Below, in pieces: positions 7,901-45,117 of a stretch of DNA of 64,000 nt. Under the pieces are notes generated by a model that worked only from the letters and a program-made list of their open reading frames with translations, was not told the origin of the DNA and searched no databases. This DNA is from Nitrospira sp. CR1.2 (GTDB lineage: Bacteria; Nitrospirota; Nitrospiria; Nitrospirales; Nitrospiraceae), in contig WIAG01000001.1 in the NCBI GenBank assembly GCA_014055495.1, forward strand, positions 1 through 64,000. Reading direction: 5' to 3'. The stretch's first letter is position 1. Each line of letters begins with the position of its first letter. The translations under genes were made by a program, and so were the position numbers.

Positions 7901-9803
7901 CCCGGGCGGGGCACGGCTCGTGGGCTACGTCACGATGGACCCGGACCGCCCTATCGACCCGGCGGCGCTCAAGGCGGCGCTCGCCGAGCGGCTGCCGGAG
8001 TATCTGGTGCCGGCGGTGATCGTCCGGCTGGCGCAGCTGCCGCTGAGCCCGAACGGGAAGGTGGACCGCGGGGCCTTGCCCGCACCGGAAGTCGCGGCAC
8101 CGCGCACGACGGCCTATGAGGCGCCGAAGACGCAGCCCGAACAGCAGTTGGCCGCCATCTGGGCCCAGGTGCTCGGCCTCGCCCAGGTCGGCCGCCACGA
8201 CAACTTCTTCGAACTCGGCGGGGATTCCATTCTCGGGCTCCAGGTGATTGCCCAGGCCAAGGAAGTCGGCCTCTCCTTGACGCCTCGGCAGCTGTTTCAG
8301 CAACAAACGATCGAAGCGCTGGCGACGGTCGTGAATCGGGAGTCGGCCGCGGCGCCGACGATCCAGGCGGAGCAGGGATTCGTGTCGGGAACCCTGCCGA
8401 TGACGCCGGCTCAACAGTGGTGGTTCGAGCAGCGATTGTCCGAGCCCCATCATTGGAATCAATCGCTCATGCTGACGATCTCCGAATCGCCGGATCGGGC
8501 CAGGTTGGCGAGCGCGCTCGGCCTCCTGCTGGAACGACACGATGCGCTGCGTATGCGCCTCGATGTCTCGAACGGCCCGACGGCGCGGATCGAGGCCCTG
8601 GTCCCATCCGAAGAACTCCTGACGTGCGTCGACCTGCGCGAACTGTCGGAGGACGCCATCACCAACGTCATCGCCGGTGAGGCCGAACGGTGCCAGCAGA
8701 GCCTGCATCTGGAGCAGGGGCCGCTGTTTCGAGCGCTCCTGTTCGACCTCGGGCCGAGGCGGCCGAGCAGGCTCCTGTTGATCGCGCACCATCTCGTCGT
8801 CGACGGGGTGTCGTGGCGCATTCTCCTGGAGGATCTTGAGCGGGCCTATCTGGCCGGCGAGGAACAGCAGGCCGACTTTCCGCCCAAGACCACCTCGATC
8901 AAACAGTGGACCGAAGCGGCACAGACGCTGGCGAAGTCCGGGGCCCTGTCGAGCGCGGCGGCTTTCTGGAGCGCGCAGGACCAGCCCGGAGCTCTGTCGT
9001 TACCACTCGACGATCCGACGGGAGCACGAACCGAGGCTTCCGCGGAGACCTGTCACCTTTCGTTCAGCCGTGAGGAGACGGAGGCCCTGTTGCGGCAGGC
9101 GCCGGCCGCCTACAAGACCCAGGTAAACGATCTCCTGTTGGCGGCCTTGGTCCAGACGTTCCACCAGTGGACGGGTGAGGATCGTCTCCTGCTGGACCTC
9201 GAGGGCCATGGTCGCGAGTCGGTCGTTCCGGGCACCGATCTGTCGCGGACGGTCGGCTGGTTCACCAGCATGTTTCCACTTCTCTTACGACGTCCGGACG
9301 GCTCGACTGCCGACATCGTGAAGGGCATCAAGGAGCAACTGCGTGCCATCCCATCGGGCGGGGTCGGATACGGCCTCTTACGGTATCTCGCCCATACGCC
9401 GGAGAGCGAACGCCTCCGACATCAGACCGCCCCGCAGGTTTGCTTCAACTATCTGGGTCAACTCGACCGGGGCGGTCCCGAACAGACCCTGTTCGGATTG
9501 GCGTCGGAACCCACCGGGCGTGAGCACGGTGCGTCGAACAGGATGCGGTACGAACTCACCATCAACGCCGATGTCACGGACGGTCGCCTCACGGTGATGT
9601 GGAGCTACAGCGGTGCGCGGTTCAGGAGGGCGACAGTCGAGATGCTCGCGGCGTCATACCGTCGATGCCTCTGCGAATTGATCGCACATTGTTGCGCGGC
9701 GGACGCGGGCGGGTATACCCCGTCGGATTTTCCGGACGTACAGATCGATCAGGATGCCCTCGACAACATTCTAGAGACCATGGAACGGAGCCATGCGCGA
9801 TAA
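1932..9803 (+). CDS. NRPS, two modules: C-A(Dab-like)-PCP-C-A(Ser)-PCP-E
   Basis: This 2623-aa synthetase starts 2 nt after the previous stop. Domain order by approximate residue: C (20-450; [21 protein letters not shown]), A1 (480-985), PCP (Ser in GGHS near 1038), C (1100-1530; [19 protein letters not shown]), A2 (1530-2045), PCP (GGDS, Ser 2099) and an epimerization domain (2155-2600; [32 protein letters not shown]). The A1 code is DIWELTADDK, recalled as a 2,4-diaminobutyrate code from Pseudomonas peptides; the acidic pocket fits a basic side chain. A2 has the serine code DVWHLSLIDK, so the module should deliver D-Ser. The first C motif has DE in place of DG. A2 and the front of its PCP belong to the 1706-bp repeat and look more GC-rich in third positions than their flanks. 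Confidence 0.96.
6522..8227 (+). repeat. Long direct repeat, copy 2 (Ser A domain and front half of PCP)
   Basis: This is the second copy of bases 1-1706. It covers the C-A linker, the full adenylation domain and the carrier domain up to the second base of the phosphopantetheine serine codon (8226-8228). After that the sequences differ ([13 protein letters not shown] here, [13 protein letters not shown] in copy 1). The sharp right boundary fits recent gene conversion or intragenic duplication. Confidence 0.95.
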
Positions 9804-12800
9804 ACCACAGATCGAAGCCATGTACTATCTGTCCCCGCTGCAGCAGGGACTGCTGTTTCACTGTTTGGCCGATGCGTCGGCCGATCCGTACTTGTATCAG
9901 TATGCCTATCGCCTCTCCGGAGACTTGCGGCTCGACGCGTTCGAGCAGGCCTGGCAGTCGGCGGTGGAGCGCCATGCGGTGCTGCGTACCGCGTTCGTGT
10001 GGGAAGGCGTGGAGAAGCCGCTGCAGGTCGTCCGTCGGCAGGTGCGCCTCCCGATCGAGCGGCATGATTGGCGCGGGGTTCCGGAGGAAGAGCAACAAGC
10101 GCGGTTCGCCTCGCTGCTTCAACGCGATCGCGCCGCCGGTCTCGATTTGCTACGGCCCCCGCTCATGCGACTGCATGTGATCCGCAGGGGCGAGCGTGAC
10201 TGGATCTTGATCAACAGCCACCACCACCTCCTCCTGGATGGGTGGAGCATGGCGATCTTGCTGCGTGACGTCGTGCTGGCGTATGAAACTCTGGCGCAGC
10301 GAGAGCGTCCTCCGCTTCGAACGCCCCGGCCCTACCGCGACTACATTTCCTGGGTTCATCGCCAGGATCTGACGCAGGCCGAAACCTACTGGCGTGGCAT
10401 GTTGGCCGGATTCGATCGGCCCACGCCGATACCGATCGAGGCCCCGTCGCACGGGTCATCCCCTGAGTCCCTGCCGTTCGCGGAACAAAATCTCCGGTTC
10501 TCAACAGAGCAGACTGAGGCGCTGCAGGCCTTCGCCAAGCGGAGTAGGGTCACCGTCAATACGGTTCTGCAAGGAGCCTGGGCTCTCTTGCTGCATCGCT
10601 ACAGCGGCGCGCGAGACCTGTTGTTCGGGGCGACCGTGTCGGGACGCACGCCCGAACTGGCCGGCGTGGACGAAATGGTCGGACTCTTTATCAACAGTCT
10701 GCCGGTGCGTGTCGCGATTCGGCCGGACCAGAAGCTGGCGGATTGGTTGCGCAGCCTGCAGGATCAGAATGCCGCGTTGCGCCAGTATGAATGGACTCCG
10801 CTCAGTCACATCCAACGGTGGAGCGACGTTCCCAACGGGACGCCCCTGTTCGACAGCCTCATGGTCTTCGAAAGCTATCCCGAGCCTGAGGACGATGGGA
10901 TTCCGCCGTCGCTCGTCATCGCGCCGTTGGCGGCGCGATCGAGCGGTGGTTATACCCTGACGCAGGGACGGAACAATTATCCGATTTCGTTAATGGTGGA
11001 GCCGGGCCGTGAGTTGTGCCTGATTGTCTGTTATGCCCATCGACGCTTTGCGCATGCGGCGATCACACACATGCTGGGCCATCTGGAACGACTCTTGGTT
11101 GCGATGGTCGAGGCCCGAGATGCGTTACTCGGCAACATGGCCCTGACGACGGAAGGGGAGCAACGGCAGCTCGTGGAGTGGAATGAAATCCCCGAGTCTG
11201 GCCGTCTGGAGGAGGCTTGCATCCATGACCTGATTGCCGCTCAGGTGAAAGCGGTGCCTGAAACGGCGGCGGTCGTGACCAAGACCGAGCGGGTGACCTA
11301 TCGGGAATTCGACCGTCGGGCAACCAGGTTGGCGCGCTATCTCCTTGCGCAGGGTGTGAAGCAGGAAGAGCGGGTCTGTCTCTGCCTGGACCGGTCCTTG
11401 GATCTGGTCGTCGCCCTCCTCGCGGTGCTGAAAGCCGGCTGTGCCTATGTGCCGCTGGATCCGACTTATCCTCGCGAGCGGCTGACGACGATGGTCGCCG
11501 ACAGCCAGGCGCGCCTGATCATCACCCGAAGCGACCAGTCGATCGGCGTCGACGATGGCGCCGCACGTCTGATTCTATTGGACCTTCACGCGGAGGACAT
11601 CGCCGCATGCGGTGACGAGCCGCTTTCGGTGGGTGTCTTTCCGAGCAACCTCGCCTACGTGATCTATACCTCGGGTTCCACCGGAAGCCCCAAGGGCGTG
11701 GCGGTGGAACACCGGCAAGTCGCAGCATACGTACAGGCGATACTCGGACTCGCGCCTGTGGCCGCCGGGACCGGCATGGCCGCCGTCTCGACCGTGGCCG
11801 CCGACCTTGGCAACACGGCCCTCTTCGGCGCGCTCTGTTCCGGGCGCACGCTTCATCTGTTCCCGACGGAGGACGGTTTCGACCCGGACGCGATGGCCGC
11901 TGCCATGCATGAGCGCCAGGTCGAGGTCCTCAAAATCGTGCCGAGCCATCTGCGTGGACTTCTCCATGCGGCCCATCCCGAGCACGTGTTGCCCACCCGT
12001 TGCCTCATTCTTGGGGGCGAGGCGCTGCGCCGCGACCTCGTCCGCCAGGTCCGTCAATTGGCACCAGACTGCACCATCGTCAACCACTATGGTCCGACCG
12101 AAACGACGATCGGGGTATTGGCTCACGTGCTCGAGGACTCAGCCGACGACATCGAGCGGGATGTGCCGATCGGCCGTCCCTTCTCCTCCGTCCAGGCCCA
12201 TGTCCTCGACGGCGATGGGCAACTGGTCCCGGTCGGTGTGCCGGGGGAACTCTATATCGGCGGGCCGCAAGTCACGCGGGGGTATCTCAACCGACCGGAG
12301 GCGACGGCAGAGCGATTCATTCCTGATCCCTTCAGTGGTCGCGAGGGAGCCAGACTCTATCGAACGGGCGATCGCGCGAAACGGCAAGCCGACGGAACGG
12401 TGGAGTTTCTCGGGCGGGTGGACCATCAGGTGAAGATTCGCGGGTTCCGCATCGAGCTGGGCGACATCGAAACCCAACTGCGGCGGGAGGCCGATGTCTC
12501 CGATGCGGTCGCGATCCTGCGCGAACAAGCCGACGGCACCCAACAGCTCGTCGCCTATGTGACCGGTGCCTCGACACTGGATACGGCCGGTCTGCGAACC
12601 AGGCTCGCGCGGTGTCTTCCGGATTACATGGTGCCGCAGCACGTTGTGCGACTGGAGGCCTTTCCCTGGACCCCAAACGGCAAGCTCGACCGGGCAGCTC
12701 TGCCGGACCCTGGCCGGGAGGACTCACACGCCATGCCCGCCTACGTGGCGCCGCGCAATAGGACTGAGGAGATCCTGGCGGGAATCTGGCAAACCGTGTT

Positions 12801-15800
12801 GCAGGTTGACCGGGTCGGCGTGCATGACAATTTCTTCGCGTTGGGTGGCGACTCGATCCGCACGCTACAGGTCATTGCGCGCGCGAACCGTGAAGGGGTG
12901 AAACTCACGCCCAAGCAATTGTTCGAACATCAAACCGTGGCGGCGGCGGCAGCCGTGGCGCTGGTGAAACAGACGGCGCCGGCCGAAACCGATCGGACCC
13001 AGCCGGGACCCACCGGTTGGGCCCAGACGAGCGCAACCCCGGTGTCCACGGCGCCGGCCCTGCCGGTCTTCCCGCTGACGGGGTTGGCATCGGAGGCCTT
13101 GGCAGGACTGCGAGGGGATTGGGCGGAGATCGAAGATTGTTATCCCTTGTCGCCGATGCAGGAAGGGATGCTGTTTCACACGTTGTTGAATCCCGGGTCC
13201 GGCATCTATCTCATGCAACAGTGTTACGCCTGGGACGGGCGGTTGGATCGGGACGCCTTCGGACGAGCCTGGCAATGCGTCATCGATCGACATCCGATGC
13301 TCCGTACCTCCTTCATGTGGAAAGACCTACCGGCGCCATTGCAGCTGGTCCATCGGCTGGTCAAGGCCGAGGACGTGATTCAGGATTTGGATTGGTCGGA
13401 AATGGGCGACGACCAACAGCAAACCCGTATGCGGGAGATGCTGGAGGAGGAATTGCACGAGGGGCTGGATTTCGACCGGGCTCCGCTGATGCGCATCCGT
13501 CTCGTGCGGCGCGGACCTGATCGCTACGCCATCGTGCGGAGCTTTCACCATATCCTGACCGACGACTGGTGTTTCTCGTTGCTGATGATGGACTTCCTCA
13601 CCCACTACGATGCCTGCCTGCAGGGACGGGTGCCGGACCTGCCTAAGCCCGCCCCGTACCGGGACTACATCGCCTGGCTGCAACGGCAAGACCAGGATGC
13701 GGCGGAACGGTTCTGGGGGCAGGAGTTGACCGGCTTCACCACGCCGACCCCGCTGGGGATCGACCGGCTGGACCCGGAGAGTGCCACCACAGGGGCCGTC
13801 AGCGCCGTGTTCATGGAACTGTCGCCGTCCGTGTCGGAGCAGCTGCGGACCTTGGCTCAGCAGCATCATGTGACGCCGAACACCTTCCTGCAAGGAGCCT
13901 GGGCCATTCTCTTGTCGCGATATAGCGGAGAACGCGAGGTGTTGTTCGGTGTGACCGTCGCAGGACGACCGACCGACCTGCCGGGCGTCGAGGACATTGT
14001 GGGCCTCTTCATCAACACGCTGCCGTTGCGTCTGGCCATCTCGCCCGATCTCCCGGTGATGTCCTGGCTTCGGCACCTGCTGGCGGAAAACTACCGCATC
14101 AGGCAGTACGAATACGCGCCGCTGGTGCGCGTCCAACAGTGGAGCGAGGTGCCGTCGGGGCAAGCGCTGTTCCGCAGCCTGCTGGTCTTCGAGAACGCGC
14201 CCAAAGATGCGCGGCTCGGCGAAGAGCGTGAGGATCGCTCCCTCTCGTACGATCAGGACCGGGTGCATACGAACTATCCCATGACCGTCGTCGGATATCC
14301 CGGCGAGTCGATGGGCGTGCGCCTCTCGTACGACCGGCGCCTCTTCGAGCATGCCGATGTCGCGCGCATGCTCGACCATCTCAAGCGATTGCTCGAATCG
14401 ATGGCGGCGACCCCCGATGCGGCTATTTGTGACTTGCCGATGCTCGATGAGGAGGAGCGCCGACGCCTGCTCGTGGACTGGAACCGCTGCGATCGCGCTG
14501 AGTGGGTCTCAGGGGACTTTGCCGCGCTCTTCGAAGCGCAAGTCGAGCGAACACCGTCGGCCGTGGCAGTGCAGTTGGGTGACGAGCGCCTGACCTACGA
14601 GGAACTGAATCGCGCTGCCAACCGGATCGCCCACGGGCTGCGCAAACGGGGCGTGGGAGCGGACTCCATCGTCGCGCTCTTGGATGACCGCGGGCCGGCG
14701 TTGTTATCGATGATCGTGGGGGTGTTGAAGGCCGGTGGCGCCTATCTCCCGTTGGATCCCCATCACCCAGCCGAGCGGCTGGTCCAGGTCCTCTCCACCG
14801 CGCCTGTGAAGTCCCTGATCCCCGGGAGCCGCCATGCGGCCTTGGCTGTAATGGTCGCAACCATGGTGCCGGGGGGATCTACTCCGGACCTTGTGTTGAT
14901 GGAGGATGTCTCAGGAGAGGCGTTCGAAGACGGCAACCCTCCGCCGCTCCCGGCACAGCAGCGTCTGGCCTATGTCATGTTCACGTCCGGGTCGACCGGT
15001 ACTCCTAAGGGCGCGATGGTGGAAACTCGGGGCATGATGAACCACCTGACCAGCAAGATCCCGACGCTGGATCTCGGTCCCTCGGACGTGGTTGCGCAGA
15101 CTGCGTCGCAATGTTTCGATATTTCGGTGTGGCAGTTCCTGACTCCGCTCCTGTGCGGGGCTCGGGTGCAGATCGTTCCCGATGAGGTGGTCCGAGATCC
15201 GCAACGGCTATTGGCCGAGGTCTCGGCGTGCCGGGTCTCGGTGCTGGAGGTGGTCCCCTCGTTGTTGGCTGGACTCCTTGACGGGGTCCCGCCGGCGTTG
15301 CCGCACATGCGCTGGTTGCTGCCCACGGGAGAAGCCCTGTCGCCGGCCCTGTCCCGCCGGTGGTTTGCCCGCTATCCGACGATTCCGCTTCTCAACGCAT
15401 ACGGCCCCGCCGAATGTTCGGACGATGTGGCCCTGGCCTGTATCCGTGAAGCGCCCGCAGAACGCGAGACCAGCATGCCGATCGGCAGGCCGATCACGGG
15501 TGTACGGTTATATGTCGTGGATCGCCATACCGAGGTGATGCCGTCCGGGGTCGCCGGCGAACTCTGTGTCGGCGGTGTGGCCGTGGGCCGCGGGTATCTT
15601 GGTGATCCCGCAAGAACGGCCGAAGTGTTTGTGCCGGATCCATTTGGGTCCGAGCCGGGCAGCCGGCTCTACCGGACCGGTGATCTTGTGCGTTACCGGC
15701 CAGACGGGGTCTTGGAGTTTGTGGGGCGACGGGACCACCAAGTCAAAATCCGGGGATTCCGCATCGAGTTGGGCGAGATCGAGGCGCGGCTGGCCCAGCA

Positions 15801-18768
15801 TCCCGGAGTGGAGCACTGTGTGGTCGTGGTCGCCGATCTGCAACCGGGACACAAGCAGTTGGCGGCCTATGTGGCGACAACGGCCTCGTTGAGCGCCGAT
15901 CGGCTGCGGTCGTTTCTGCGCCGAACGCTGCCGGAGTATATGGTGCCGGCGACGTTTGTGTTGCTTCCGGCATTGCCGCTCACGCCGAACGGAAAAATCG
16001 ACCGCAAGGCGCTGCCCAAACCGGATGCCGACCGTGTGGCAGACGATTTCGAGCCGGCGGCTACACCCACGCAGGACCTTGTCGGGGGGATCTGGGCCGA
16101 GATTCTCGGTCTGGATCGCATCGGCAGGCGCGATCACTTTTTCGAACTGGGAGGCCATTCACTCCTGGCCACTCAAGTCATGTCCCGCGTGCGTACCACG
16201 TTCCAAATCGAACTGCCGTTACGGACATTATTCGACCATCCCACGGTAGAGGCTTTTGCCGCGGCCATCGATCAAGCGGTGACGCAAGGCGACGAGACGC
16301 ACGTGCCTCCGCTCTTGCCGATGCCGAAGACCGAGGCAATGCCGCTCTCCTTCGCGCAGCAGCGCCTCTGGTTCCTGGCGCAAATGGACCCGGACAGCGG
16401 GGCCTACAACTTGCCGTTCGCCCTGCGCCTGGGCGGCACCGTGAATCATCACCTGCTCGAGTGTAGTTTTCTCGCCCTGATTCGCCGGCATGAAACGTTG
16501 CGCACGACCTTTCCCGCAGTGGACGGAGAACCGCGGCAGGTGATCGTCGAGGCGGATCACTTCCCGATCCACATCGAGGACCTGGCAGCCTTGTCGGAGT
16601 CCGAGCGGACGGCGACCATCAGCCGGTATGTGGAATCAGAGGCGCATGAGCCGTTTCGCCTCGATCGAGACCTGCCGATCCGTGCGCTGCTCCTCCGGGT
16701 GGGCGACGACGCGCACATCCTGCTCGTCACGGTGCACCATATCGCGGCCGACGCCTGGTCGTTGGCGGTGGTGACTCATGACGTCGCGACCCTCTACAAC
16801 GGGCTGGCACAGGAGGCGGATGGCGAGCAGGTCCCGTCGAACGATCACTCGGGAGCGCTCCTGCCTCCGTTACCGATCCAGTACCGCGACTTTGCCCTGT
16901 GGCAACGGCAATGGCTCCAAGGTCCCGTGCTTGAACGGGAGATCAGGTACTGGAAGCAACGATTGGGGTCGGCGCCGCCTCAACTGACGCTTTCGACCGA
17001 TCACCCACGGCCTGATCGGCAAACGTATCGCGGCGGTCGAGTTGCGTTCCACGTACCGGGAGAGCTGCTCGAACCGCTACGACGAGTCAGTCGGCGGGAA
17101 GGCGTCACCTTGTTCATGACGCTGCTGGCCGCCTTCAACGTGCTGTTGTCTCAATTGGCCAAGCAGAGCGACATCCTGGTCGGCACCGATGTCGCCAATC
17201 GCAACCGTGCCGAGACCGAACCGCTCGTGGGGTTTTTCGTCAATCTCCTGCCCCTGCGCACCGATCTGAGCGGGAATCCCTCTTTTCTTCAGCTTTTGGG
17301 GCGGGTGCGCGAGACGGCCTTGGGCGCCTATGCGCATCAAGATGTGCCGTTCGAAAAGATCGTGGAGTCGCTCAAGTTGCAGCGGGATCTCGGAAGGAAT
17401 CCGCTGGTGCAGGTGTTGTTCGTACTTCAGAACGTGCCGCCTCCGTCCCTGCAGTTGTCCGGAGTGGATGTCGAGTCGCTGGAATTCGAACATGAGGTGT
17501 CGCGATTCGACGTGGGGTTGTTCATGGAAGAAACGGAGGATGGTTGCGCGGGTCTGTGGAAGTTCAGCCGCGACTTGTTCGAGCTCGAGACGATCGCCGG
17601 ATGGACGGATCGTCTTCTGGGATTGTTGCGGCAGATCGGACTCTCGCCCGAGCGGGGGATCGACACGCTGGGATGGGAGGATGAATGGACACAGGAGGCG
17701 CAGACCATGGATCAGCAGCAACGAACCGAGCAACGGCTTCAGCGATTCAAGGCGATCAAGCCGAAACCGATCGCCTTGGCCCAACGCATATTGGTGGCAG
17801 GTCGCCCGCTCCTGGAGGGCCATGCGATGCCCTGGATCTATACTCCGTCGGTGGAAGATGTCGATCTGGCGGGATGGGTCAGGGAACATCGCAGCGGATT
17901 GCAAGGTGAACTGCTGCAGTCCGGCGCACTATTGTTTCGCGGGTTCGCGCTCAAGACGGTGCAGGATTTTGAATCCGTCGCGCAAGCCTTCTGCCAGAGT
18001 CTTTTCGGCGAATATGGCGATCTTCCCCGGGAGAAGAGCGGCCGCCACGTCTATGGATCGACACCCTATCCGCCGGACAAGCCCATTCTCTTCCACAACG
18101 AGAGTTCCCACATGCATCGGTGGCCGCAGAAGCAGTTCTTCTTCTGTCTCCAGGCGGCGCAGGAGGGCGGTCAGACCCCGATCGTGGACGGCCGCCTGAT
18201 GCTCAAGGGGCTTCGAGCCGATCTGCGCCAGCGGCTGCGCGCCAAACAACTGATGTACGTCCGCAACTTCCTGCCCGGCGTGGATGTCAGCTGGCAGGAC
18301 TTCTTTCACACCACCGACAAAGCGGCGGTGGAAACCATCTGCGCCGCGAACGGCATGGTCTGGCAGTGGTTGGAGAAGGAGGGCTTGCGCACCAAGCAGA
18401 TCTGTCCCGCTATCATCGAGCATCCCGATACGGGCGAGGCGGTGTTCTTCAATCAAATCCAGCTGCATCACGTCTCCTGTTTGGAGCCGGCGGTGCGCGA
18501 GTCCCTCTTGTCGATGCTCGGTATCGATTCTCTGCCGCGAAACGTCTACTACGGTGACGGTTCAGCGATCGAAGACGAGGTGGTCGATGAGATCGGCGCC
18601 TTGTACGAGCGGACCGCGGTACGGTTTCCGTGGCAGGAGGGGGACCTCATCATGCTGGACAATATGCTCGTGGCGCATGCCCGAGATCCCTTCGTCGGAC
18701 CCAGGAAAATCGTGGTCGCCATGGGCGACATGATCGCTCAGTCCGCCGTTCACTCCATGACGTCGTAA
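9793..18768 (+). CDS. NRPS, C-A(Asp)-PCP-C-A(Dab-like)-PCP-C plus fused TauD/SyrP-type hydroxylase
   Basis: This 2991-aa protein overlaps the previous gene by 11 bp, suggesting coupled translation. Order by approximate residue: C (8-440; [10 protein letters not shown]), A1 (480-975), PCP (GGDS near 1020), C (1115-1540; [22 protein letters not shown]), A2 (1575-2075), PCP (GGHS near 2120), C (2180-2600; [19 protein letters not shown]), then an Fe(II)/2-oxoglutarate dioxygenase (2670-2985). The A1 code DLTKIGHIGK matches the Asp signature; A2 is DIWELTADDK (Dab-like). In the dioxygenase the likely iron ligands are H2768 and E2770 (HNE) and H2962 (LVAHARD), with R2971 for 2-oxoglutarate. HNE in place of HxD is the pattern known in SyrP-like aspartyl beta-hydroxylases. 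The hydroxylase sits after the C domain that feeds the Asp module of the next protein, its likely substrate; the Asp of A1 is an alternative. Confidence 0.95.
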
Positions 18769-18777
18769 GGGGGAGGC

Positions 18778-21700
18778 ATGCAACAGGAGATCGAGATTGA
18801 AGGATTACGACTCTCGCCGCAACAGAAACGGCTCTGGCTGTGGCAGCAGCAGGGACATCTCGTCCACGCAAGAGGCGTCGTCATGCTGGATGGCGCATTC
18901 GACGAGGAAGCAGTGTTGGTGGCCCTCCGCCGGGTGATCGCTCGCCACGACAGCCTGCGGATGACGTTTTACCGTCAGCCGGGCATGAAGGTGCCGTTTC
19001 AGGTCGTCCATGAGGCGGGGGGCCTGGACTGGCACGTGCTCGATCTCCGTCATCTCCCCCGGGATGGCGAGCGTGAAGAGGCTCTGGAGCTGGTTGCCCA
19101 ACGCAAGGACGCGCCCGATTGGGAACGAGGACCACTCGTGCGCGCCATCTTCTGTCGATGGACGGAGACTCATACGCGAATCCTCCTCGACGTACCGGGT
19201 CTCTGTGCCGATGCCAAGTCACTGTCGAACGTGGTCGCCGAACTGAGCCGTGCGTTGGACGGAGATCTCGGCGACGAGGGAGACGACCCGGTTCAATATG
19301 GACAGTTTTCCGAATGGCAGCATGAGCTGATCGAAGCGGAAGAGGCGGCCCAGGGACGAGCCTGGTGGTCCCGTTGCAACAGTGCCGGTCTGGACAGTCT
19401 GGTCTTGCCGTTTGAACGAGAACCTTCTCTCACTGGGTCCGATGCCGGGAGGCGTCCGATCCATCGCGCGCTCTCCGCGGCCGAGATCCGGCGGTTGCGG
19501 GACCGTGCCGCCGACGCACAGGTCTCTCTGCCTGTGCTGTTATATGGTTGTTGGTCGGCGCTGCTCTCTCGCATGACCGGGGCGCGCGAGTTGGCCTGCT
19601 GGTGGCGATCCGACGGCCGTCCGTATGAAGAATTGTCCGAGGGGATCGGACTATTCGAACGGTGGCTGCCGCTTCCCTTCCGGATAGAAGGCAATATGGC
19701 ACTTCGAGATCTGTTGTCGATGCTGTCCCGTCAACAGGCGCAAGCAGAAGACTGGCAACAATATTATGCCGGTCGGTCGGAAGACGAAGAACTGCAGGCG
19801 GTGAGGGATGCGATCGGCTTTGAGTATAGCCGTCGCCCCATGCCTCACCGGACGACAGCCGGTGTCATCGCGTTTGCGGAGGGTTCGTTGTGTGCCGAGC
19901 CCTTCAAATTGCGCTTGGCTTGTTTGGAAAATGCGACGGGCCTCACCATGAACTGGCACGTCGACCGGGAACGGATACCAAACGAGATGATGGAGACACT
20001 GGCGGATCGCTACGTCGAATTGCTCCGCGGCCTCCCGGAGCGGCTCGACATCACAATCGATGAGTTGGAGATCGTCGGGACAGGGGAACGGATCAGACTG
20101 ACGCGGGAACTCAACCGTACCGGTCACTCTTGCCAGTCCACCTCTTTGATGCACAGCCTGATCGAGGCCCAGGCGAAACAGCATTCCGGGCACACGGCCC
20201 TGGTTGCCGGCGGTCAGCGCCTGTCCTATGACGCGCTCAACCGCCAGGCCAACCGGATTGCGCAGGGACTCAAGCGCCGCGGCGTGACCATCGGGGACCG
20301 CGTCGGTCTCTGCATCGATCGTTCGGCGGACATGATCGTGGCGATGCTGGGCGTACTGAAAGCCGGTGCCGCCTACGTACCGATCGATCCGGCCCATGCC
20401 GCGGTGCGGCTGGCTCCGCAGATGGCCCAGAGTGGCGCGGCGATTCTCCTGACCCGATCGGCCACGGACCAACCGCTTCCTCGATTCGATGGTGTGATAC
20501 TGAATCTTCCCGAGGATGTGGCAAACGAACCAGACGACGATCTCGACCTGCTGTTCCCGCCGGACGAACTCGCGTACGTGATCTACACGTCAGGATCGAC
20601 CGGCCAGCCGAAAGGGGTTGCCGTCTCTCATCGTAGTCTTGCCAACTATACGTCCGCCATCACGAGACGATTGGGGCTGGCCGGCCGGTTGCAGTTTGCC
20701 ACCGTTTCCACGCTGAGCGCGGACCTGGGCCACACTGTCATCTTCCCCGCGCTCACCTCCGGCGGCTGCCTCCATGTGATCGACTATGAAACCGCAACTG
20801 ACGGACGGTCGTTCGCGTCGTATCTCGCCACACATCCCATCGATGTGTTGAAAATCGTGCCGTCCCATTTCAAGGCTCTGTTGGCGACCAGCGAAGGAGA
20901 GGTGGTCTGGCCGCGGGCCTATCTGATCTTCGGCGGAGAAACGCTGTCGTGGGAGTTGGCCGATCAGGTCCGGCGGCAGGCGAGTTGTGCGGTACTCAAC
21001 CACTACGGTCCGACGGAGACGACCGTCGGCGCTACCGTATCCCTCGTGACCGACGATCCCGCACCCCGCATGGCCCGCAGCGTGCCCATCGGGCGTCCGA
21101 TCGACAATTTGGAGAGCTACATTTTGGACGAGCTCCGGGAGCCGGTGCCAATCGGCGTGGCAGGCGAACTCTATCTGGGCGGTCAAGGCCTCGCGTGTGG
21201 CTATTGGAATCAACCGGACCGCACGGCTGAGCGATTTGTGCCGAATCCCCATGCGTCCGAGCCCGGCGCGCGCCTCTATCGGACGGGCGATCGTGCCAGG
21301 CGTCTCCCGGACGGATCGATCGAGTTTCTCGGTCGACTGGATCACCAGGTCAAGATTAGAGGGTTTCGGATCGAACTTGGAGAAATCGAAACCGTGTTGC
21401 GAGAACATCCTGCCGTGCAGGATGTCGTGGTCATGGTTCGGGAAGACAGCCAGGGCGAATCGTACCTCGCAGCCTATTATGTGGCACGAGGGGTGGAGCC
21501 GGATGGCCGGGCCATCCAGGACTTTCTCCGCTCCCGTTTGCCGGACTATATGGTGCCGACTGCTGTGATCGCGTTGTCGGCTCTCCCTCTATCGGCCAAC
21601 GGCAAGGTCGATCGTCGAGCGCTCCCTAAGCCGGAATGTGACGGACAAGACGTTCGGCGATACGTGGCCCCCGCTACGCCCACGGAAACCATTCTGGCGG

Positions 21701-24700
21701 GTCTCTGGACCGACGTGTTGAAGCGAGAGGGGGTCGGTGTGCAGGACAATTTTTTCGACCTGGGTGGACATTCGCTGCTCGCCACGCAAGTCATGTCTCG
21801 GTTACGAAACGCGTTTGGGGTGGAGTTGCCGTTGCGAACGCTCTTCGAATCCCCCACGATCGCGCAGCTGGCTTGGGTGGTCGAGACGGCGCGGGGCTTG
21901 GAGCGGGAAGAGCAGCCGCCACCGATAACCGCGATCGCGCGAACCGGACCTATCCCACTGTCGTTTGCACAACAACGGCTTTGGGTGCTCGCGCAGTTGG
22001 AACCGGACAGCACCGCGTACAACATTCCGATTGCCCTGCGCGTCAAGGGGGCGCTCGACGTCGCGGCCTTGGAATGCAGCTTCCACGAGGTTGTCGGTCG
22101 TCACGAAGCCTTGCGCACCAGGTTCCACAGTTTGAACGGGGTCCCGATGCAGGTGATCGGGCCGTCCCGGCCGTTCACGATTCCGCTCATCGATCTGCAA
22201 CATCTTCCGGAGGAGCGCCTCGAGCAGGCAGCCACACGCTTGGCGGCGGTGGAAGCCGAGCGTCCGTTCGATCTTCGGTACGGGCCGCTCTTCCGGGTCA
22301 GCCTGATTCGACTCCGTCCCCATGAGCACCTCCTGTTGCTGACGTTGCACCACATCGTCTCGGATGCCTGGTCCGCGCATGTGCTCGTCCAGGAGTTGAC
22401 CGCTCTCTATGCCGCTGCGGTCGAGCGGCGCCCGGCTTCATTGCCCGACTTGCCGTTGCAATACGCCGATGTCTCGCAATGGCAGCGAGCGTGGCTGAGC
22501 GGCCCGGTCCTCGAACGGGAATTAGGATTCTGGAAAACCATACTGGGCGGCGACTTGCCGGTCCTCACCCTCCCGACGGATCACCCCCGGCCCGCCGTTC
22601 AAACGTCACATGGCGCGATGGTCACCGCGACCATCCAGCCGGCTCTTGCCGGGGACCTCAGGGCAGTGAGCCGCCGCATGGGTGCGACTCTCTACATGAC
22701 GCTGCTGAGCGCATTTTTCATCCTGCTGGCTCGCATCGCCGACCAGTCGGACCTGATCGTCGGGACGCCCATCGCCAACCGGACCAGAAAGGAAACGGAG
22801 GGGCTCATTGGCTTCTTCGTCAACACGCTGGCGATTCGCACGCGGCTGTCGCAGGTCGCCACGATCGCCGACGTGATCGCGGCTGTGCGCGAAGCCTGCT
22901 TGGAGGCCTATGCGCATCAGGAAACCCCGTTCGAGAAAGTCGTGGACGCAGTGCAACCGTCGCGCGATGTGAGTCGTTCGCCGATCTTTCAAGTCATGTT
23001 CGATCTGCAGAACGCGCCCGTGGTCGACTTGCAGGTGAGTGGGCTGGAGTTTGAGGCCATCGAGATCGAGACGACGACCGCGAAGTTCGACCTCTCTATG
23101 ACGGTGCAGGAAGCGAACGACGGGTTGATTGTGGGGCTCGAGTACAACACCGATCTCTTCGAGGCCGCCACGGCGACCAGGCTGTTGCATCAGTATGAGC
23201 TGATTGTGGCCTCGTTGGTTCGAGACGTCCGCATGCCGGTCGGGTCGATCGCCTTCTTGACCTCCGGGGAACGGCAGGCCCTATTGTCGGTGAATCGGGC
23301 CGGCCTGTCGTTAGTGCCTGCGCTGCCGCTGGCGAGGCTCTTCGAGCAGCAGGTGGAGCGGACGCCGGAGGGGACTGCAGTGGGGCTGGAGGGCCATACC
23401 TTGTCGTACGCGGCGCTCAACGCGAAGGCCAATCGGCTGGCGCGCTGGTTGCGGAGTCGGGGCGTGGGGCCGGAAAGGCGAGTGGGCGTCCGGCTCGAGC
23501 GTTCCGTGGAGCTGGTCGTCGCGCTGTTGGCGATTCTGAAGTCCGGCGGGGTGTATGTCCCGATCGACCCGGCGTACCCGGCCGAGCGACAACGACAGAT
23601 GGCACTCGATGCAGCGCTGGACCTCTTGTTGATCAGCGGAGCCATGCTGCCGGGCGATCACGAGTTCTCCATGCCGGTCCAGGCTCTGGACGTGCTGGAT
23701 GGCGACCTGCAGGCCATGGATGACGACAATCTGTCTGGTTCGTATTCTCCGGAACAAGCCGCCTATGTGATTTACACGTCCGGCTCGACCGGCAGACCCA
23801 AGGGGGTCGTGGTCTCCCAGGGCGCATTGTCCCGGCACCTGCAAACCATCGCGCCTGCCTACCACCTCGGTCCGACCGATCGAGTGTTGCAGTTTGCCTC
23901 GATCGGCTTCGACGTGGCGGGCGAGGAACTGTGGTCCGCTCTCTTGGCCGGCGCGGCGGTGATGCTGCAACCCTGCCGCCTGTTCGATTCGCTTCCGGAG
24001 TTTTCCCGGTTTCTCGAAGAGCAACGCGTGACGGTCGCAGGGGTTCCCGCTTCGTATTGGCATGAATGGATCGGCGCCATCGAGAGGGGTGGGTGTGCCG
24101 CGCCACAGTCCTTGCGGCTGGTGATCGTGGGCAACGAGCCGGTCGTCTCCTCCGATCTGGGTCGATGGCGGCGGCTGGTGGGTCGGACGGTCCGGTGGCT
24201 CAACGCCTATGGTCCGACGGAAACCACGGTGACCGCCAGCCTGTACGAGCCGGCGCCCACAACGACGGGGAGCGAGTCCCGGACGGTCCCGATCGGGCGC
24301 CCCTTGGCGGGTCGTACGCTCTACGTACTGGACCGAGACCTCGAGCCGATGCCTTTTGGGTCGCCGGGAGAGCTGTACATCGGAGGCGAAAGTCTGGCCC
24401 GAGGGTATCTGGGGGATCCCACGCGCTCGGCTGGGGTGTTCGTGCCGGATCCGTTCAGCGAGAGGCCGGGAGCGCGCTTATATAAAACGGGAGACCGGGT
24501 TCTGGTTCGGCGCGATGGTACGATCGAGTTTCTCGGTCGAGTCGACGACCAGATCAAGTTGCGTGGATTTCGCATCGAACCGGGTGAGATCGAAGCGTGT
24601 TTGCGCAGACATGCCGATGTGCGGGCGGCCTTTGTGCGCCCACAAACGGACGCGGAAGGACGGACCAGACTCATCGCCTATGTGGCGCCCCGAGAGGCCG

Positions 24701-25950
24701 GGGCCTTGGAAGGCCAGATGCTCCGCCGTTGGCTCGGCACAACCCTTCCGGAATACATGGTGCCCTCTGTCATCGTATCGGTCACCGACCTGCCGAAGAC
24801 GCCAGGGGGGAAGGTCGATCTGAAGGCATTGCCCGAACCGGATTGGGTCGGTTCCGACCGGCAGCCATCCGCAATGCCGATCACGCCGCTCCAACGGCGG
24901 TTGGCGACGATGTGGAGCGAAGTCCTCGGTGTCGGCCGGATCGGGCTCCAAGACAACTTTTTCGATATGGGAGGCCATTCTCTTCTGGCCGTGCAGGTGA
25001 TCACACGGATTCAAACCGAGGTGGATCGTCCCCTGACATTGATGGACCTCTTTCGGTATCCGACGGTGGAGCAGCTGGCTCAACGGCTTGAAGGAGCGCA
25101 TAGCTCTGCAACCGAGCTCGTGTCTCTGCGCGATGGCCGCGACCGGCTCCCGCTGTTCTGCTTCGATCCCGATGGCACGCACGTGCAGGCCTATCGGCCC
25201 TTGGCACTGTCGCTGGAAGAGGGGCGTCCGGTGTATGGCTTGTCGCTGAGTCACCTCTTTGGGATGCGTTGGCAGGATGTGTCGATTCCCAAGCTGGCTG
25301 AGCGGCAAGCGGCAGTAATTCGCGAGCGACAGCCCCGTGGTCCTTATCATCTGGTGGGATGGTCGAACGGGGGTGTTCTGGCGTTGGCAGCAGCGCAGGT
25401 GCTGGAGCGAGACGGGGAGAAGGTCGCGTTCCTTGGGCTCTTGGATAGTCAGCCGGAGCACGCCTTGTACGAGACGCAGGGGCCCACGCCGGTGGACGAA
25501 CTCATGGCCTACATCCGGCGTGATCGACGAGACACGTTCAATGCGATTCCAGAATCCGAACGCGAGGCCTTGAGACAGAAGCTGGACCGGCTCGACGAGG
25601 AGCATCGCTTGGAGTCAGCCATTCAGTGGGCGCGCGAGCGGGAGTTCCTCTCTCCCGAGGAGGCGGAATCCTCGATCGGTTCGCTCAAACTGGGATACGC
25701 CTTGGCCAGAGAAGCCGCACGATTTGTGTCCAGGACCAGGAGCCACCCCATTCAGGCCCCGATTCATGTCTGGTGGACGAGTGCCACCCTCTCGCGCTGG
25801 GGAAAAGGTCCGGTCGAATGGTCGGAGCATACGACAGGAGCCGTCTCGGTGGAGACCGTGTCCGGAGACCATATGGACGCGGTCCATAGCATCCACGCCC
25901 ATCAGCACATCGGCGACGCACTCGCAGCCATCAAGCCGGCGAGAAGCTGA
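18778..25950 (+). CDS. NRPS, terminal: interface-like C domain-A(Asp)-PCP-C-A-PCP-thioesterase
   Basis: This 2390-aa synthetase starts 9 nt after the previous stop behind a GGGGGAGG ribosome site. Residues 10-430 have a condensation fold (LSPQQKRLWLWQQ), but the catalytic HHxxxDG region reads LLDVPGLCADAKS, with no His pair. That fits the non-condensing interface domains known beside siderophore Asp hydroxylases. A1 (455-965) has code DLTKIGHVGK (Asp); its PCP is GGHS near 995. C (1060-1490) carries HHIVSDAWS. A2 (1518-2030) reads DVEGIGAVTK with VTVAGVPASYWHE around position 278; this is nearest, from memory, to N-hydroxyornithine codes and is tentative. After a PCP near 2065, the thioesterase (2115-2390) has GWSNGG with Ser2196, probable Asp2223 and His2365. 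It should release, possibly cyclize, the finished peptide. A hairpin follows the stop. Confidence 0.95.
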   Translation: MQQEIEIEGLRLSPQQKRLWLWQQQGHLVHARGVVMLDGAFDEEAVLVALRRVIARHDSLRMTFYRQPGMKVPFQVVHEAGGLDWHVLDLRHLPRDGEREEALELVAQRKDAPDWERGPLVRAIFCRWTETHTRILLDVPGLCADAKSLSNVVAELSRALDGDLGDEGDDPVQYGQFSEWQHELIEAEEAAQGRAWWSRCNSAGLDSLVLPFEREPSLTGSDAGRRPIHRALSAAEIRRLRDRAADAQVSLPVLLYGCWSALLSRMTGARELACWWRSDGRPYEELSEGIGLFERWLPLPFRIEGNMALRDLLSMLSRQQAQAEDWQQYYAGRSEDEELQAVRDAIGFEYSRRPMPHRTTAGVIAFAEGSLCAEPFKLRLACLENATGLTMNWHVDRERIPNEMMETLADRYVELLRGLPERLDITIDELEIVGTGERIRLTRELNRTGHSCQSTSLMHSLIEAQAKQHSGHTALVAGGQRLSYDALNRQANRIAQGLKRRGVTIGDRVGLCIDRSADMIVAMLGVLKAGAAYVPIDPAHAAVRLAPQMAQSGAAILLTRSATDQPLPRFDGVILNLPEDVANEPDDDLDLLFPPDELAYVIYTSGSTGQPKGVAVSHRSLANYTSAITRRLGLAGRLQFATVSTLSADLGHTVIFPALTSGGCLHVIDYETATDGRSFASYLATHPIDVLKIVPSHFKALLATSEGEVVWPRAYLIFGGETLSWELADQVRRQASCAVLNHYGPTETTVGATVSLVTDDPAPRMARSVPIGRPIDNLESYILDELREPVPIGVAGELYLGGQGLACGYWNQPDRTAERFVPNPHASEPGARLYRTGDRARRLPDGSIEFLGRLDHQVKIRGFRIELGEIETVLREHPAVQDVVVMVREDSQGESYLAAYYVARGVEPDGRAIQDFLRSRLPDYMVPTAVIALSALPLSANGKVDRRALPKPECDGQDVRRYVAPATPTETILAGLWTDVLKREGVGVQDNFFDLGGHSLLATQVMSRLRNAFGVELPLRTLFESPTIAQLAWVVETARGLEREEQPPPITAIARTGPIPLSFAQQRLWVLAQLEPDSTAYNIPIALRVKGALDVAALECSFHEVVGRHEALRTRFHSLNGVPMQVIGPSRPFTIPLIDLQHLPEERLEQAATRLAAVEAERPFDLRYGPLFRVSLIRLRPHEHLLLLTLHHIVSDAWSAHVLVQELTALYAAAVERRPASLPDLPLQYADVSQWQRAWLSGPVLERELGFWKTILGGDLPVLTLPTDHPRPAVQTSHGAMVTATIQPALAGDLRAVSRRMGATLYMTLLSAFFILLARIADQSDLIVGTPIANRTRKETEGLIGFFVNTLAIRTRLSQVATIADVIAAVREACLEAYAHQETPFEKVVDAVQPSRDVSRSPIFQVMFDLQNAPVVDLQVSGLEFEAIEIETTTAKFDLSMTVQEANDGLIVGLEYNTDLFEAATATRLLHQYELIVASLVRDVRMPVGSIAFLTSGERQALLSVNRAGLSLVPALPLARLFEQQVERTPEGTAVGLEGHTLSYAALNAKANRLARWLRSRGVGPERRVGVRLERSVELVVALLAILKSGGVYVPIDPAYPAERQRQMALDAALDLLLISGAMLPGDHEFSMPVQALDVLDGDLQAMDDDNLSGSYSPEQAAYVIYTSGSTGRPKGVVVSQGALSRHLQTIAPAYHLGPTDRVLQFASIGFDVAGEELWSALLAGAAVMLQPCRLFDSLPEFSRFLEEQRVTVAGVPASYWHEWIGAIERGGCAAPQSLRLVIVGNEPVVSSDLGRWRRLVGRTVRWLNAYGPTETTVTASLYEPAPTTTGSESRTVPIGRPLAGRTLYVLDRDLEPMPFGSPGELYIGGESLARGYLGDPTRSAGVFVPDPFSERPGARLYKTGDRVLVRRDGTIEFLGRVDDQIKLRGFRIEPGEIEACLRRHADVRAAFVRPQTDAEGRTRLIAYVAPREAGALEGQMLRRWLGTTLPEYMVPSVIVSVTDLPKTPGGKVDLKALPEPDWVGSDRQPSAMPITPLQRRLATMWSEVLGVGRIGLQDNFFDMGGHSLLAVQVITRIQTEVDRPLTLMDLFRYPTVEQLAQRLEGAHSSATELVSLRDGRDRLPLFCFDPDGTHVQAYRPLALSLEEGRPVYGLSLSHLFGMRWQDVSIPKLAERQAAVIRERQPRGPYHLVGWSNGGVLALAAAQVLERDGEKVAFLGLLDSQPEHALYETQGPTPVDELMAYIRRDRRDTFNAIPESEREALRQKLDRLDEEHRLESAIQWAREREFLSPEEAESSIGSLKLGYALAREAARFVSRTRSHPIQAPIHVWWTSATLSRWGKGPVEWSEHTTGAVSVETVSGDHMDAVHSIHAHQHIGDALAAIKPARS

Positions 25951-26076: not shown

Positions 26077-29000
26077 CTAGTCTCTGAAATGCGTGGGGCT
26101 CGGCAGGACTGTGCCCAGACCAGGACCGGTCGTCACGACATGTCGCGCCGCCCAGGTCTTAGCCAACATCGTATAGATCACTGGTACCAAAAACAGAGTG
26201 AGGAGTGTCGAGAGCACGAGACCGTTGATGACGACGAGGCCAATGTGCCACCGGCCTGCGGCGCCTGCGCCGGAGGCCAGGGCCAAGGGGAGGGCGGCCA
26301 GGATGGTCGACATTGTCGTCATGATGATAGGCCGGAGGCGCAAGGCTGCGGCGTCGATGATAGCCACCTGGGTCGAACGGCCGTCCTGACGCAGCTGATT
26401 GGCAAACTCCACGATCAGGATGGCGTTTTTCGTGACCAGCCCGATCAGAATCATCAAGCCGATTTCGCTGTAGATGTTCAACGTTCCCCGGAACAGCAAC
26501 AGGGCCAGCAAGGCGCCGGCCAGGGCCGGCGGCACCGACACGAGGACGGTGATCGGGTGGCGGAAGCTCTCGAACTGCGCCGCCAGGATGAGATAGACGA
26601 CCAGCAGGGCCAGCACAAAGGTGAAGTGGAGGTTGCCGGACGACTCCTTGAACTCTTTGGTTTCGCCTGCGTAACTGATGCTGGCACCGGGAGGGAGGTG
26701 TTTGCGGATGATCTGTTCCAACGACTCCACTGATCGGCTGAGGGTGGAGCCGGGACCGACCCCGGCGCTGATCGTGGCGGCGCGCAGTTTTTCATAGTGG
26801 TTGAGCTGTTTCGGGGCGACGGTCTCGCTCAACGAGACGAGGTTGCTGAGCGGGATCAAATCCCCCTGCGTCCCGCGGACGTGCAGGCGGTCGATGTCCG
26901 ATTTGGTGCCGCGATGCTGGGGCCGCATCTGGATGATGACGGGATATTCCTTCCCTTCGCGCATGAACATGGAGGCTTTCCGCCCACCGAGGAACACTTC
27001 CAATGTCCGGCCGATCGTCTCGACCGGAATGCCGAGGTCGGCCGCTTTGTCCCGGCTGATGTCGACTCGCAGCTCGGGCTTGTTGAGGTCGAGGTCGCTC
27101 TCGACGTTCACCAACGCCGGATAGTTCACCGTGTCACGGCGGACCTGCGTCATGATCTTGTCCAGCACGTCATAGGTCGGACCGCGTACCACCAGTTGCA
27201 CCGGCGTCTTGCTGTCTTCCTGATTGAACGGCGGCGGGTTGAGCGCGAAGACGCTGGCGCCGGGGATGGCCGACAGGGTCGGTTCCACTTCGTCGACGAT
27301 CTCTCGCTGCACCCGGTCGCGATCCGACCAGTCCTTCAACGTGACCCAGGTGACGGCGCGGGTCACCAGCGTCGGGCGCCAGCCCCGCGCGACGACGGTG
27401 TAGTAGGAATCCATCTCGGGAATGCGTTCAGCTGTCGTCTCGGTGTCCTTGGCATAACGGTCCGTGTAGTCGAGTGTGGACCCCTCCGGGGTGTTGACGT
27501 GGATGGCGAACCAGCCGGTGTCTTCCAGCGGCGCGAGTTCGCTCGGGAGGGCCCAGAGGAGCAGGCCGCTCACGGCCAAGGAGACAAGGGCTGCGACCAC
27601 CACCAGGGACGGCCGCCGGAGGGCCGTCTCCAGGGCGGCACGATAACGTCGGGTGAGCCATCGGAGCCAGGCGGCACTATCCAATGCCGACCCGGTTGCC
27701 GACGAGCCGGCGACGACGGTTCGACTCAACAGGCGGGCGCACATGGCCGGCGTGAGGGTGAGGGCGATGAAGCCCGACAGCAACACGGACCCTGCAACAG
27801 CGATTCCCAGCTCCGAGAACAATCGACCGACAATGCCGGGGAGAAAGATGATCGGAAAGAAGACTGCCGCGAGCGTCAACGTCGTCGAGATCACGGCGAA
27901 CCCGATCTCCCGGCTCCCTTCGAGGGCGGCCTCTCTGGGAGTGAACCCCTGCTCGATGCGCCGGTACACATTTTCGACCACGACGATCGCGTCGTCCACG
28001 ACGAGCCCGATAGCCAACACGAAGCCCAGCAACGTGATCGTGTTGATCGAGCTGCCGGTGGCTTGCATCAGGACGAAGGTGCCCAGGATGGAGCCGGGAA
28101 TGGCCACGGTGGGAATCAGCGTGGCCCGCGCGCTCCGCAGAAATAGAAACACAACCAGGACCACGAGGACTACGGATAGGGCGACGGCTTGGTAAACTTC
28201 GCGCAGGGATCGTTCGATGTAAATCGAGCTGTCGAACGCGGTGACAAGCTGCATGCCTTCCGGGAGCAAGGTTTCCAGCGAGGGCAGGGTGCGTTTGACG
28301 GCGCGAGCGGTCTCCAGCGTATTGGCCTTCGACTGTTTGATGATGCCCAGCCCGATGGCCGGCTTGCCGTTGACGCGCACCAGTTTTCGTTCGTCCTCGG
28401 CGGCGATCTCGGCGAGCCCCACATCCTGCAGGCGGACCGGGTAGCCGTCGCGATAGGCCAAAATCAACTGATTGAACTGCTCCGGGCGCTCCAACCCGCC
28501 GCCCATCCGCACGCTGAATTCCCGTTGGGTGCTTTCGATGCGGCCGGTCGGCATGTTGACATTTTGGGTACGCAGGGCGGTCTCGACGTCCTCCACCGTC
28601 AGGAGCCGGGAGGCGAGCCGATCCGGATCCAGCCAGATCCGCATCGCATAACGGCGTTCCCCGTCGAGGGCCACGCTGGAGACGCCCGGCAGCGGCGCGA
28701 GCCGGTCTTTCAGCTGGCGTTGGGCGAAGTCGGTGATGTCCAGTTCGCTGTGGCGGTCGCTGATCACCGCGAGCCACATGATGCCGTCCGCTTCGCTATC
28801 CTCCTTCATGACCAGCGGGGGTTCGATGCCCTGAGGCAAGAGGTATCGCACTCGGGCCACACGGTCGCGCACATCGTTGGCCGCGGCATCCAGGTTTCGC
28901 GTGAGGGCAAATTCGAGGCTGATGGTCGAGAGACCCTCTCGACTGGTCGAACGTAAGGTCCGCAGCCCCTCGACGCCGCTCAACGCATCCTCCAGCACCG

Positions 29001-29193
29001 ACGTGATGTCCGTTTCGACCAGTTGGGCGTCGGCGCTCTGATACACGGTGAGCACGGAGACCACGGGGAAGGTGATGTCGGGGTACTCGCGGATCGGCAG
29101 TCGTGAGTACGACAGCAGGCCGAAGAGCATCAGCAAGAGCGTCGCGACGGTGGCGAGGACCGGACGCTCGATGGAGAGGGCGGACAATTTCAT
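26077..29193 (-). CDS. RND (HAE1/AcrB-type) efflux pump inner-membrane subunit
   Basis: The 1038-aa product has the usual length and layout of an AcrB/MexB-type proton-driven transporter. The N-terminus (MKLSALSIERPVLATVATLL) is the first membrane helix; GLVVDDAIVVVENVYRRIE is the conserved helix-4 region with paired Asp residues for proton relay. Large periplasmic loops and a second helix set (LMILIGLVTKNAILIVEFAN) follow. It starts 19 nt after the adaptor gene and is the last gene of the exbB-exbD-tonB operon. Sitting tail-to-tail with the NRPS genes, it is a good candidate exporter of the peptide product, though substrate cannot be read from sequence. No outer-membrane channel gene is present, so it would need one from elsewhere. 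Confidence 0.93.
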   Translation of the reverse strand: MKLSALSIERPVLATVATLLLMLFGLLSYSRLPIREYPDITFPVVSVLTVYQSADAQLVETDITSVLEDALSGVEGLRTLRSTSREGLSTISLEFALTRNLDAAANDVRDRVARVRYLLPQGIEPPLVMKEDSEADGIMWLAVISDRHSELDITDFAQRQLKDRLAPLPGVSSVALDGERRYAMRIWLDPDRLASRLLTVEDVETALRTQNVNMPTGRIESTQREFSVRMGGGLERPEQFNQLILAYRDGYPVRLQDVGLAEIAAEDERKLVRVNGKPAIGLGIIKQSKANTLETARAVKRTLPSLETLLPEGMQLVTAFDSSIYIERSLREVYQAVALSVVLVVLVVFLFLRSARATLIPTVAIPGSILGTFVLMQATGSSINTITLLGFVLAIGLVVDDAIVVVENVYRRIEQGFTPREAALEGSREIGFAVISTTLTLAAVFFPIIFLPGIVGRLFSELGIAVAGSVLLSGFIALTLTPAMCARLLSRTVVAGSSATGSALDSAAWLRWLTRRYRAALETALRRPSLVVVAALVSLAVSGLLLWALPSELAPLEDTGWFAIHVNTPEGSTLDYTDRYAKDTETTAERIPEMDSYYTVVARGWRPTLVTRAVTWVTLKDWSDRDRVQREIVDEVEPTLSAIPGASVFALNPPPFNQEDSKTPVQLVVRGPTYDVLDKIMTQVRRDTVNYPALVNVESDLDLNKPELRVDISRDKAADLGIPVETIGRTLEVFLGGRKASMFMREGKEYPVIIQMRPQHRGTKSDIDRLHVRGTQGDLIPLSNLVSLSETVAPKQLNHYEKLRAATISAGVGPGSTLSRSVESLEQIIRKHLPPGASISYAGETKEFKESSGNLHFTFVLALLVVYLILAAQFESFRHPITVLVSVPPALAGALLALLLFRGTLNIYSEIGLMILIGLVTKNAILIVEFANQLRQDGRSTQVAIIDAAALRLRPIIMTTMSTILAALPLALASGAGAAGRWHIGLVVINGLVLSTLLTLFLVPVIYTMLAKTWAARHVVTTGPGLGTVLPSPTHFRD

Positions 29194-29212
29194 GCTGGTG
29201 TGGCCTGGGGCG

Positions 29213-37647: not shown

Positions 37648-37720
37648 AACGACTCCTTCACGTTGTCTCACGGCTCTGTTCTCCACTAACCATGACGCCG
37701 AGAGCAGAACGAAAAGGATG

Positions 37721-37739
37721 TCGCGCGCGCGATTTTTTT
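37721..37739 (+). other. CG palindrome followed by seven T in the fecR-receptor gap
   Basis: TCGCGCGCGCGA is followed by TTTTTTT on the + strand, in the 119-nt gap between fecR (ends 37767) and the receptor (starts 37647). It resembles a + strand terminator stem, but no + strand gene ends here. It may instead be part of the promoter region of the receptor gene. Confidence 0.35.
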
Positions 37740-37766
37740 CGACAACAATGAGCCGGAAGGCCGGCG

Positions 37767-39253: not shown

Positions 39254-39536
39254 ACTCGCCGGGAACCCCCTGGTGTGAGAAACGGGGGGAGTCTATACGC
39301 GGGGAGGGGCTGGCGGCCATGTTCGGATTCCTGAAGCATGGATTGCACGCTACCCTGTTCGGCACAGCAGAGCAACGGTGTGAGGAGCGAACATGCCATG
39401 TCGACGGCCGGCAGGTGCACATGTAGGGCGCGCACAAGGATTGGCCCGCATGAGTCCCGACGAGCCGCCGGGAATCATACGGGCTTGGAGATCGTTGGGG
39501 AGTCTTCCCGTACTCGTCACGTCCGATGGAAGTGTC

Positions 39537-43136: not shown

Positions 43137-43170
43137 GGCTGTTCGGTGCCTCGGTTCGCTACGAGGGCGG

Positions 43171-44212: not shown

Positions 44213-44216
44213 TCCG

Positions 44217-45114: not shown

Positions 45115-45117
45115 GGC

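Follow-up and report, generated by a model that had tools for sequence, protein, structure and literature searches.

A beta-hydroxyaspartate-type module divided over two synthetase proteins in Nitrospira, with a fused hydroxylase and a putative interface domain

Described systems with a hydroxylase at a protein joint

Some hydroxylases are fused at the C-terminus of a non-ribosomal peptide synthetase (NRPS) and accompanied by an interface domain, as reportedly set out in the abstract of the work by Reitz in 2019 that gave such domains their name. The cyanochelin B synthetase of Leptolyngbya sp. NIES-3755 (AP017310.1) has the same joint as the 64-kb stretch of Nitrospira DNA analysed here (the window): a fused beta-hydroxylase ends BAU16013, a condensation-like (C-like) domain of the interface clade followed by an adenylation (A) domain opens BAU16012, and the end of the fused gene and the start of the next lie within 17 bases. 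The cyanochelin B TauD domain is 55.4% identical to that of the window over 97%. The structure of cyanochelin B is published, the domain order is in print, and L-threo hydroxy-Asp is assigned to the module after the fused hydroxylase (PMC12628792); the mapping of CcsFGH and CcsI to BAU16013 and BAU16012, respectively, was made here. Cyanochelin B differs in being the product of a PKS/NRPS hybrid with other modules, and its stand-alone hydroxylase is followed by an interface-clade domain, whereas the domain next to the Nitrospira stand-alone TauD is an ordinary condensation (C) domain with the HHxxxDG motif.

The potashchelin synthetase of Halomonas sp. MG34 has the order FAAL-ACP-C-TauD-C-A(Asp)-PCP, in which TauD closes PtcB, and one fused and one stand-alone hydroxylase are present, as in the window's genome (PMC7100376). 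The likeness to the window, in that C-TauD ends PtcB and C-A(Asp)-PCP comes next, is drawn from this published order; potashchelin differs in being a known product, a nonapeptide with a fatty acid, and in that the second domain is labelled simply C. A Variovorax locus (L013, VarG TauD type), which we infer from genus and domain order to be a variochelin-type cluster, also has a fused TauD with the C-like domain in a new protein, and both domains fall in the window's clades, although its interface motif is SVNPLAADRES. The published stereochemistry for the fused type conflicts: threo is given in PMC12628792 and in the abstract and results of PMC7100376, the introduction of which reverses the assignment, as against erythro for the VarG TauD (PMC10999976).

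Organization of the Nitrospira assembly line

The end of an NRPS assembly line occupies the first 26 kb of the window on the + strand (the window opens contig C150 of a 4.06-Mb genome), and the protein order is A-T (truncated at the 5' end), C-A-T-C-A-T-E, C-A-T-C-A-T-C-TauD, and C-like-A-T-C-A-T-TE. The features of the last two proteins are as follows.

9793..18768, + strand: NRPS protein C-A-T-C-A-T-C-TauD, 2991 aa
11275..12474, + strand: second Asp-type A domain, in the upstream protein, code DLTKIGHIG
12826..12858, + strand: GGDSI carrier motif of the second Asp module, followed by a C domain, with no E domain
16333..17673, + strand: C domain of the split Asp module; retains the active-site motif HHIAADA and groups with LCL-type domains (genome-wide search, motif, tree)
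17740..18744 (search match 17851-18720), + strand: TauD-family Fe(II)/2-oxoglutarate Asp beta-hydroxylase domain, fused type
18766..18777, + strand: stop TAA and 9-base spacer with GGGGGAGG directly before the next ATG
18778..25950, + strand: NRPS protein interface domain-A(Asp)-T-C-A-T-TE, 2390 aa (Pfam: Condensation, AMP-binding and PP-binding at the start)
18799..20100 (search match 18808-20094), + strand: interface-type domain, condensation fold without the HHxxxDG histidines (motif, tree, model)
19195..19212, + strand: PGLCAD in place of HHxxxD; relatives mostly have LPALCAD
20203..21393, + strand: A domain of the split module, nine-residue code DLTKIGHVG (Asp), read by landmarks
21745..21777, + strand: carrier (T) motif DNFFDLGGHSL of the split Asp module
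21946..24597, + strand: C and A domains of the last module, code DVEGIGAVT
25150..25887, + strand: thioesterase domain, end of the assembly line (Pfam)

The sequence-only reading had proposed an Asp module shared between a C-TauD protein end and a His-less C-like protein start, with the Asp A domain next, and the Pfam order, the motif columns and the code DLTKIGHVG bear this out. We read the joint as lying within a siderophore-synthetase module for beta-hydroxyaspartate that two polypeptides share, with an interface domain and a fused hydroxylase, and give this reading a probability of about 0.88.

In a complete relative (L122/L123) the whole order is a stand-alone TauD, C-A-T-C-A-T, C-A-T-C-A-T-E, C-A-T-C-A-T-C-TauD, and interface-A-T-C-A. 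At the truncated end of the Nitrospira line, window 1-1706 is 100% identical to 6522-8227 (1706 bases, comprising a Ser-type A domain and the carrier start). The last bases of contig C124 are the first 127 bases of C150, so that C124 and C150 are probably adjacent in the genome; the 1706-base repeat is the likely place where the assembly broke, and it may also have collapsed there. The C domains at window 2001-3335 and 13135-14472 group in the post-E (DCL-type) clade, and the modules preceding them have GGDSI carriers and no E domain, likewise in relatives. The code DIWELTADD is common to three modules (window 3435-4664, window 14572-15786, and L120 6794-8005).

The joint between the two proteins

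When named genomes were scanned with a TauD alignment, 414 relatives emerged, and the best 80, mostly from Cyanobacteria and Nitrospira, were taken as a sample that is biased towards close relatives of the window's hydroxylase. Among these best 80 of 414, a C domain is fused ahead of TauD in 78 loci and a C-like domain comes next in 77, in all of which a stop separates C-TauD from the C-like domain (77/77; single chain 0/77); in 75 of the 77 the chain continues from the C-like domain into an A domain. In a wider count all 86 of 86 pairs are split. Kept in the counts are L113 and L115, stand-alone TauDs of the fused kind (in L115 an interface domain still follows and the contig begins just upstream); L018, in which no C domain is attached to TauD and the one far downstream is an ordinary C domain; and the loci without a downstream C-like domain, L046 (where the contig ends), L089 and L113. 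L014, which is below the TauD score limit, is absent from both the 86-pair and the 80-locus counts, and L133r is absent from the latter.

The domain order had been thought unusual. A search for the same order shows the split to be the rule among relatives (77/80 loci, best 80 of 414), and the order is published for potashchelin and cyanochelin B; the idea of a rare arrangement is rejected, while the rest of that interpretation (a split Asp module, a fused TauD and a domain of interface type) stands. The domain order is ordinary for this family, and the member from the Nitrospira lineage is new.

The genes 9793-18768 and 18778-25950 are in one frame, and between them there are one TAA and GGGGGAGGC ahead of the ATG. 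A shared frame with a single stop is what would be left if an uninterrupted gene had been wrongly sequenced or assembled, but the spacer carries a ribosome-site-like GGGGGAGG that precedes the ATG of 18778-25950, the split recurs in 77/77 loci with a downstream C-like domain (best 80 of 414 relatives), and the two genes share a frame in only 21 of the 86 pairs of the wider count. An artefactual stop is vanishingly improbable, and we reject it because relatives carry the same split.

Little protein lies on either side of the stop. No more than 22 residues extend beyond the TauD match among the 86 C-TauD/C-like pairs (four values are slightly negative, the match passing the stop), and the C-like match is preceded by at most 20 possible residues in 78 of 85 in the wider pair count. 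With so short a TauD tail and C-like leader there is therefore little room for a usual docking domain. It is conceivable, if doubtful, that the hydroxylase-interface pair is itself the docking joint between synthetase proteins, and that the stop is kept by selection since TauD must swing between carrier and interface untied to the downstream protein, without an ordinary docking domain. For the engineering of Asp modules, so regular a split, flanked by hardly any tail or leader, points to a natural place to cut.

An interface-type domain in place of an active condensation domain

The domain that opens the downstream protein is a strong family match in the genome-wide search (E = 1.2e-39), like TauD well outside what chance would give, and matches PF00668 by Pfam. 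Both histidines are absent, because its HHxxxDG columns read DVPGLCADAKS; the histidines are retained in the window's seven further condensation-family domains. By sequence, 18799-20100 is thus predicted not to be an active condensation domain. A structure model (44 aligned sequences, mean pLDDT 89.7) has a complete condensation fold, and comparison with solved C domains gives Z up to 37.9 and an rmsd of 3.1 Å over 425 residues. PDB entry 4tx3 is among the fold matches.

In a tree of 118 condensation-family domains, made by a quick search without bootstraps and with compositional outliers among the interface rows, all 27 rows given the interface label from their position, including that of the window, form with three others one clade of 30 rows with 99% SH-aLRT. 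The clade includes the cyanochelin B and Variovorax rows, on which, together with context, the interface label is based, and also an L129 row tagged 'aftStand' that follows a TauD remnant. Outside it are the rows of E domains, the post-E/DCL group, and the LCL-type group to which the C domains preceding TauD belong. The suggestion that the N-terminal domain is of interface type thus came through the phylogeny check, and the motif alignment and tree give no active LCL or DCL identity for 18799-20100, which lacks HHxxxDG and falls in neither clade.

A condensation fold without its catalytic histidines could also be an LCL or DCL condensation domain that decayed recently after module shuffling and has no role in hydroxylation. 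However, the domain is kept beside the same hydroxylase type in 77/80 loci, with HHxxxD in 0/77 of the downstream C-like domains (best 80 of 414 for both), and has its own conserved motif and a clade separate from LCL, DCL and E rows. Recent decay is therefore very improbable, and it is rejected on the separate clade and the conserved motif. The assignment of 18799-20100 as an interface domain is well supported, given these features and its position between the Asp beta-hydroxylase and the Asp A domain. By analogy only, the domain is comparable to the X domain of teicoplanin synthetase (PDB 4tx3), in which a condensation fold without activity delivers the P450 OxyB to a substrate held on the carrier; the oxygenase there is of another family. 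Profiles for siderophore beta-hydroxylases and for interface domains are already part of antiSMASH 8, and the IBH_Asp, CyanoBH_Asp and SBH_Asp profiles are described in PMC12971057.

The fused hydroxylase and the two Asp modules

Pfam places a Condensation domain and then TauD at the C-terminal end of 9793-18768, the latter (PF02668) at residues 2687-2976 of 2991 with E = 1.7e-46. An NCBIfam search gave no model above cut-off, and PDB sequence searches returned only condensation-family domains and generic TauD-like proteins. Four TauD residues are invariant in 8/8 aligned relatives (H at 18094-18096, E at 18100-18102, H at 18676-18678 and R at 18703-18705) and are presumably the iron and 2-oxoglutarate ligands of a 2-His-1-carboxylate site. 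In the TauD tree the window enzyme lies inside the fused (IbetaHAsp) clade, which also contains the fused enzyme of cyanochelin B, and apart from the stand-alone TbetaHAsp enzymes, with a split of 100/100; one row, L134r, is labelled fused by a frame rule and is annotated as a separate gene in its record. A fused TauD hydroxylase, as first proposed, agrees with both the PF02668 match and this placement.

Codes of the DLTK type are taken here to specify Asp, and that of L018 to specify Ser. Of the 79 A domains after the next C-type domain downstream of TauD (window, plasmid and genome loci together), 78 have codes beginning DLTK. The pattern DLTK[IVL]GH[VI]G fits 77 of them and, apart from a gap, also L086; the remaining A domain, in L018, is Ser-like and preceded by an ordinary C domain.

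The window's genome has a second TauD, a stand-alone enzyme at C124:34367-35296, and the Nitrospira stand-alone TauDs group in the tree with MobD of tistrellabactin. MobD is named TbetaHAsp, and stand-alone TbetaHAsp enzymes are linked with a GGDSI carrier (PMC10391617). The second Asp module of the window has such a carrier and the split module has GGHSL, so each Asp module likely has its own hydroxylase. The carrier rule is not absolute, since the 84 interface-module carriers comprise 72 with GGHSL, six with GGDSI, and six in which the motif was not found.

The second Asp-type A domain is on the same protein as the fused TauD, as it would be if the hydroxylase acted on that Asp (11275-12858) or on a free amino acid, leaving the split module to deliver plain Asp. 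The second module, however, has no interface domain and has the GGDSI carrier tied to stand-alone TbetaHAsp (PMC10391617), and in relatives the domain after TauD leads into an A domain of Asp type; we consider this alternative improbable and prefer hydroxylation in the split module.

In the preferred reading, the A domain at 20203-21393 would load Asp onto the carrier at about 21745, and the TauD domain with which the upstream protein ends would hydroxylate the beta carbon of the Asp on that carrier. No peptide bond would be formed by the His-less interface domain, which may keep the hydroxylase and the loaded carrier together, and the C domain before TauD would then link the upstream peptide to hydroxy-Asp. 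The second Asp module (11275-12858) is probably the target of the stand-alone hydroxylase on C124, and the two hydroxy-Asp residues would bind iron.

Distribution and neighbouring genes

The same split is found at the proteobacterial plasmid loci L013, L016, L017 and L135, and the complete chromosome of Ca. Nitrospira defluvii carries the same module (L105). A siderophore-type hydroxylase, fused or stand-alone, is present in 22 of 295 sampled genomes of the phylum, and 16 NRP-metallophore regions are reported in Nitrospirota (PMC12971057). Among the titles and abstract openings listed for papers on a Nitrospira siderophore, none describes a structure or cluster. The siderophore logic of two hydroxylases and an interface domain, known from Proteobacteria and Cyanobacteria, is thus also present in the nitrite-oxidising Nitrospira lineage.

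Genes for iron uptake lie near the assembly line. There are three TonB-dependent receptors with STN domains at window 35089-47670 (- strand), among which FecR-like genes are paired with ECF-sigma-like ones at least twice (one pair found by search, one by eye), and TonB (30849-31889) and an RND efflux pair (26077-30292) adjoin the receptor region. TonB, the three receptors, FecR and the ECF sigma factor within the window are counted in favour of the siderophore-synthetase reading. An Rfam search of the window gave no match. Other NRPS condensation domains of the same genome lie outside the cluster (G000:C112:17615-22204 and G000:C124:18803-20143) and possibly belong to a second product.

Departures from the compact joint are seen in some relatives. 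Remnants of a TauD 3' end lie between an intact C-TauD and the interface protein or contig end at L129 11811-12053 (G189), L045 3678-3980 and L046 7203-7346. At the cyanobacterial loci L014, L057, L084, L085, L091, L103, L110 and L111 C-TauD and the interface protein are separated by a complete additional gene; by eye these genes are methyltransferase-like, cupin dioxygenase-like, a second TauD, or HD-like.
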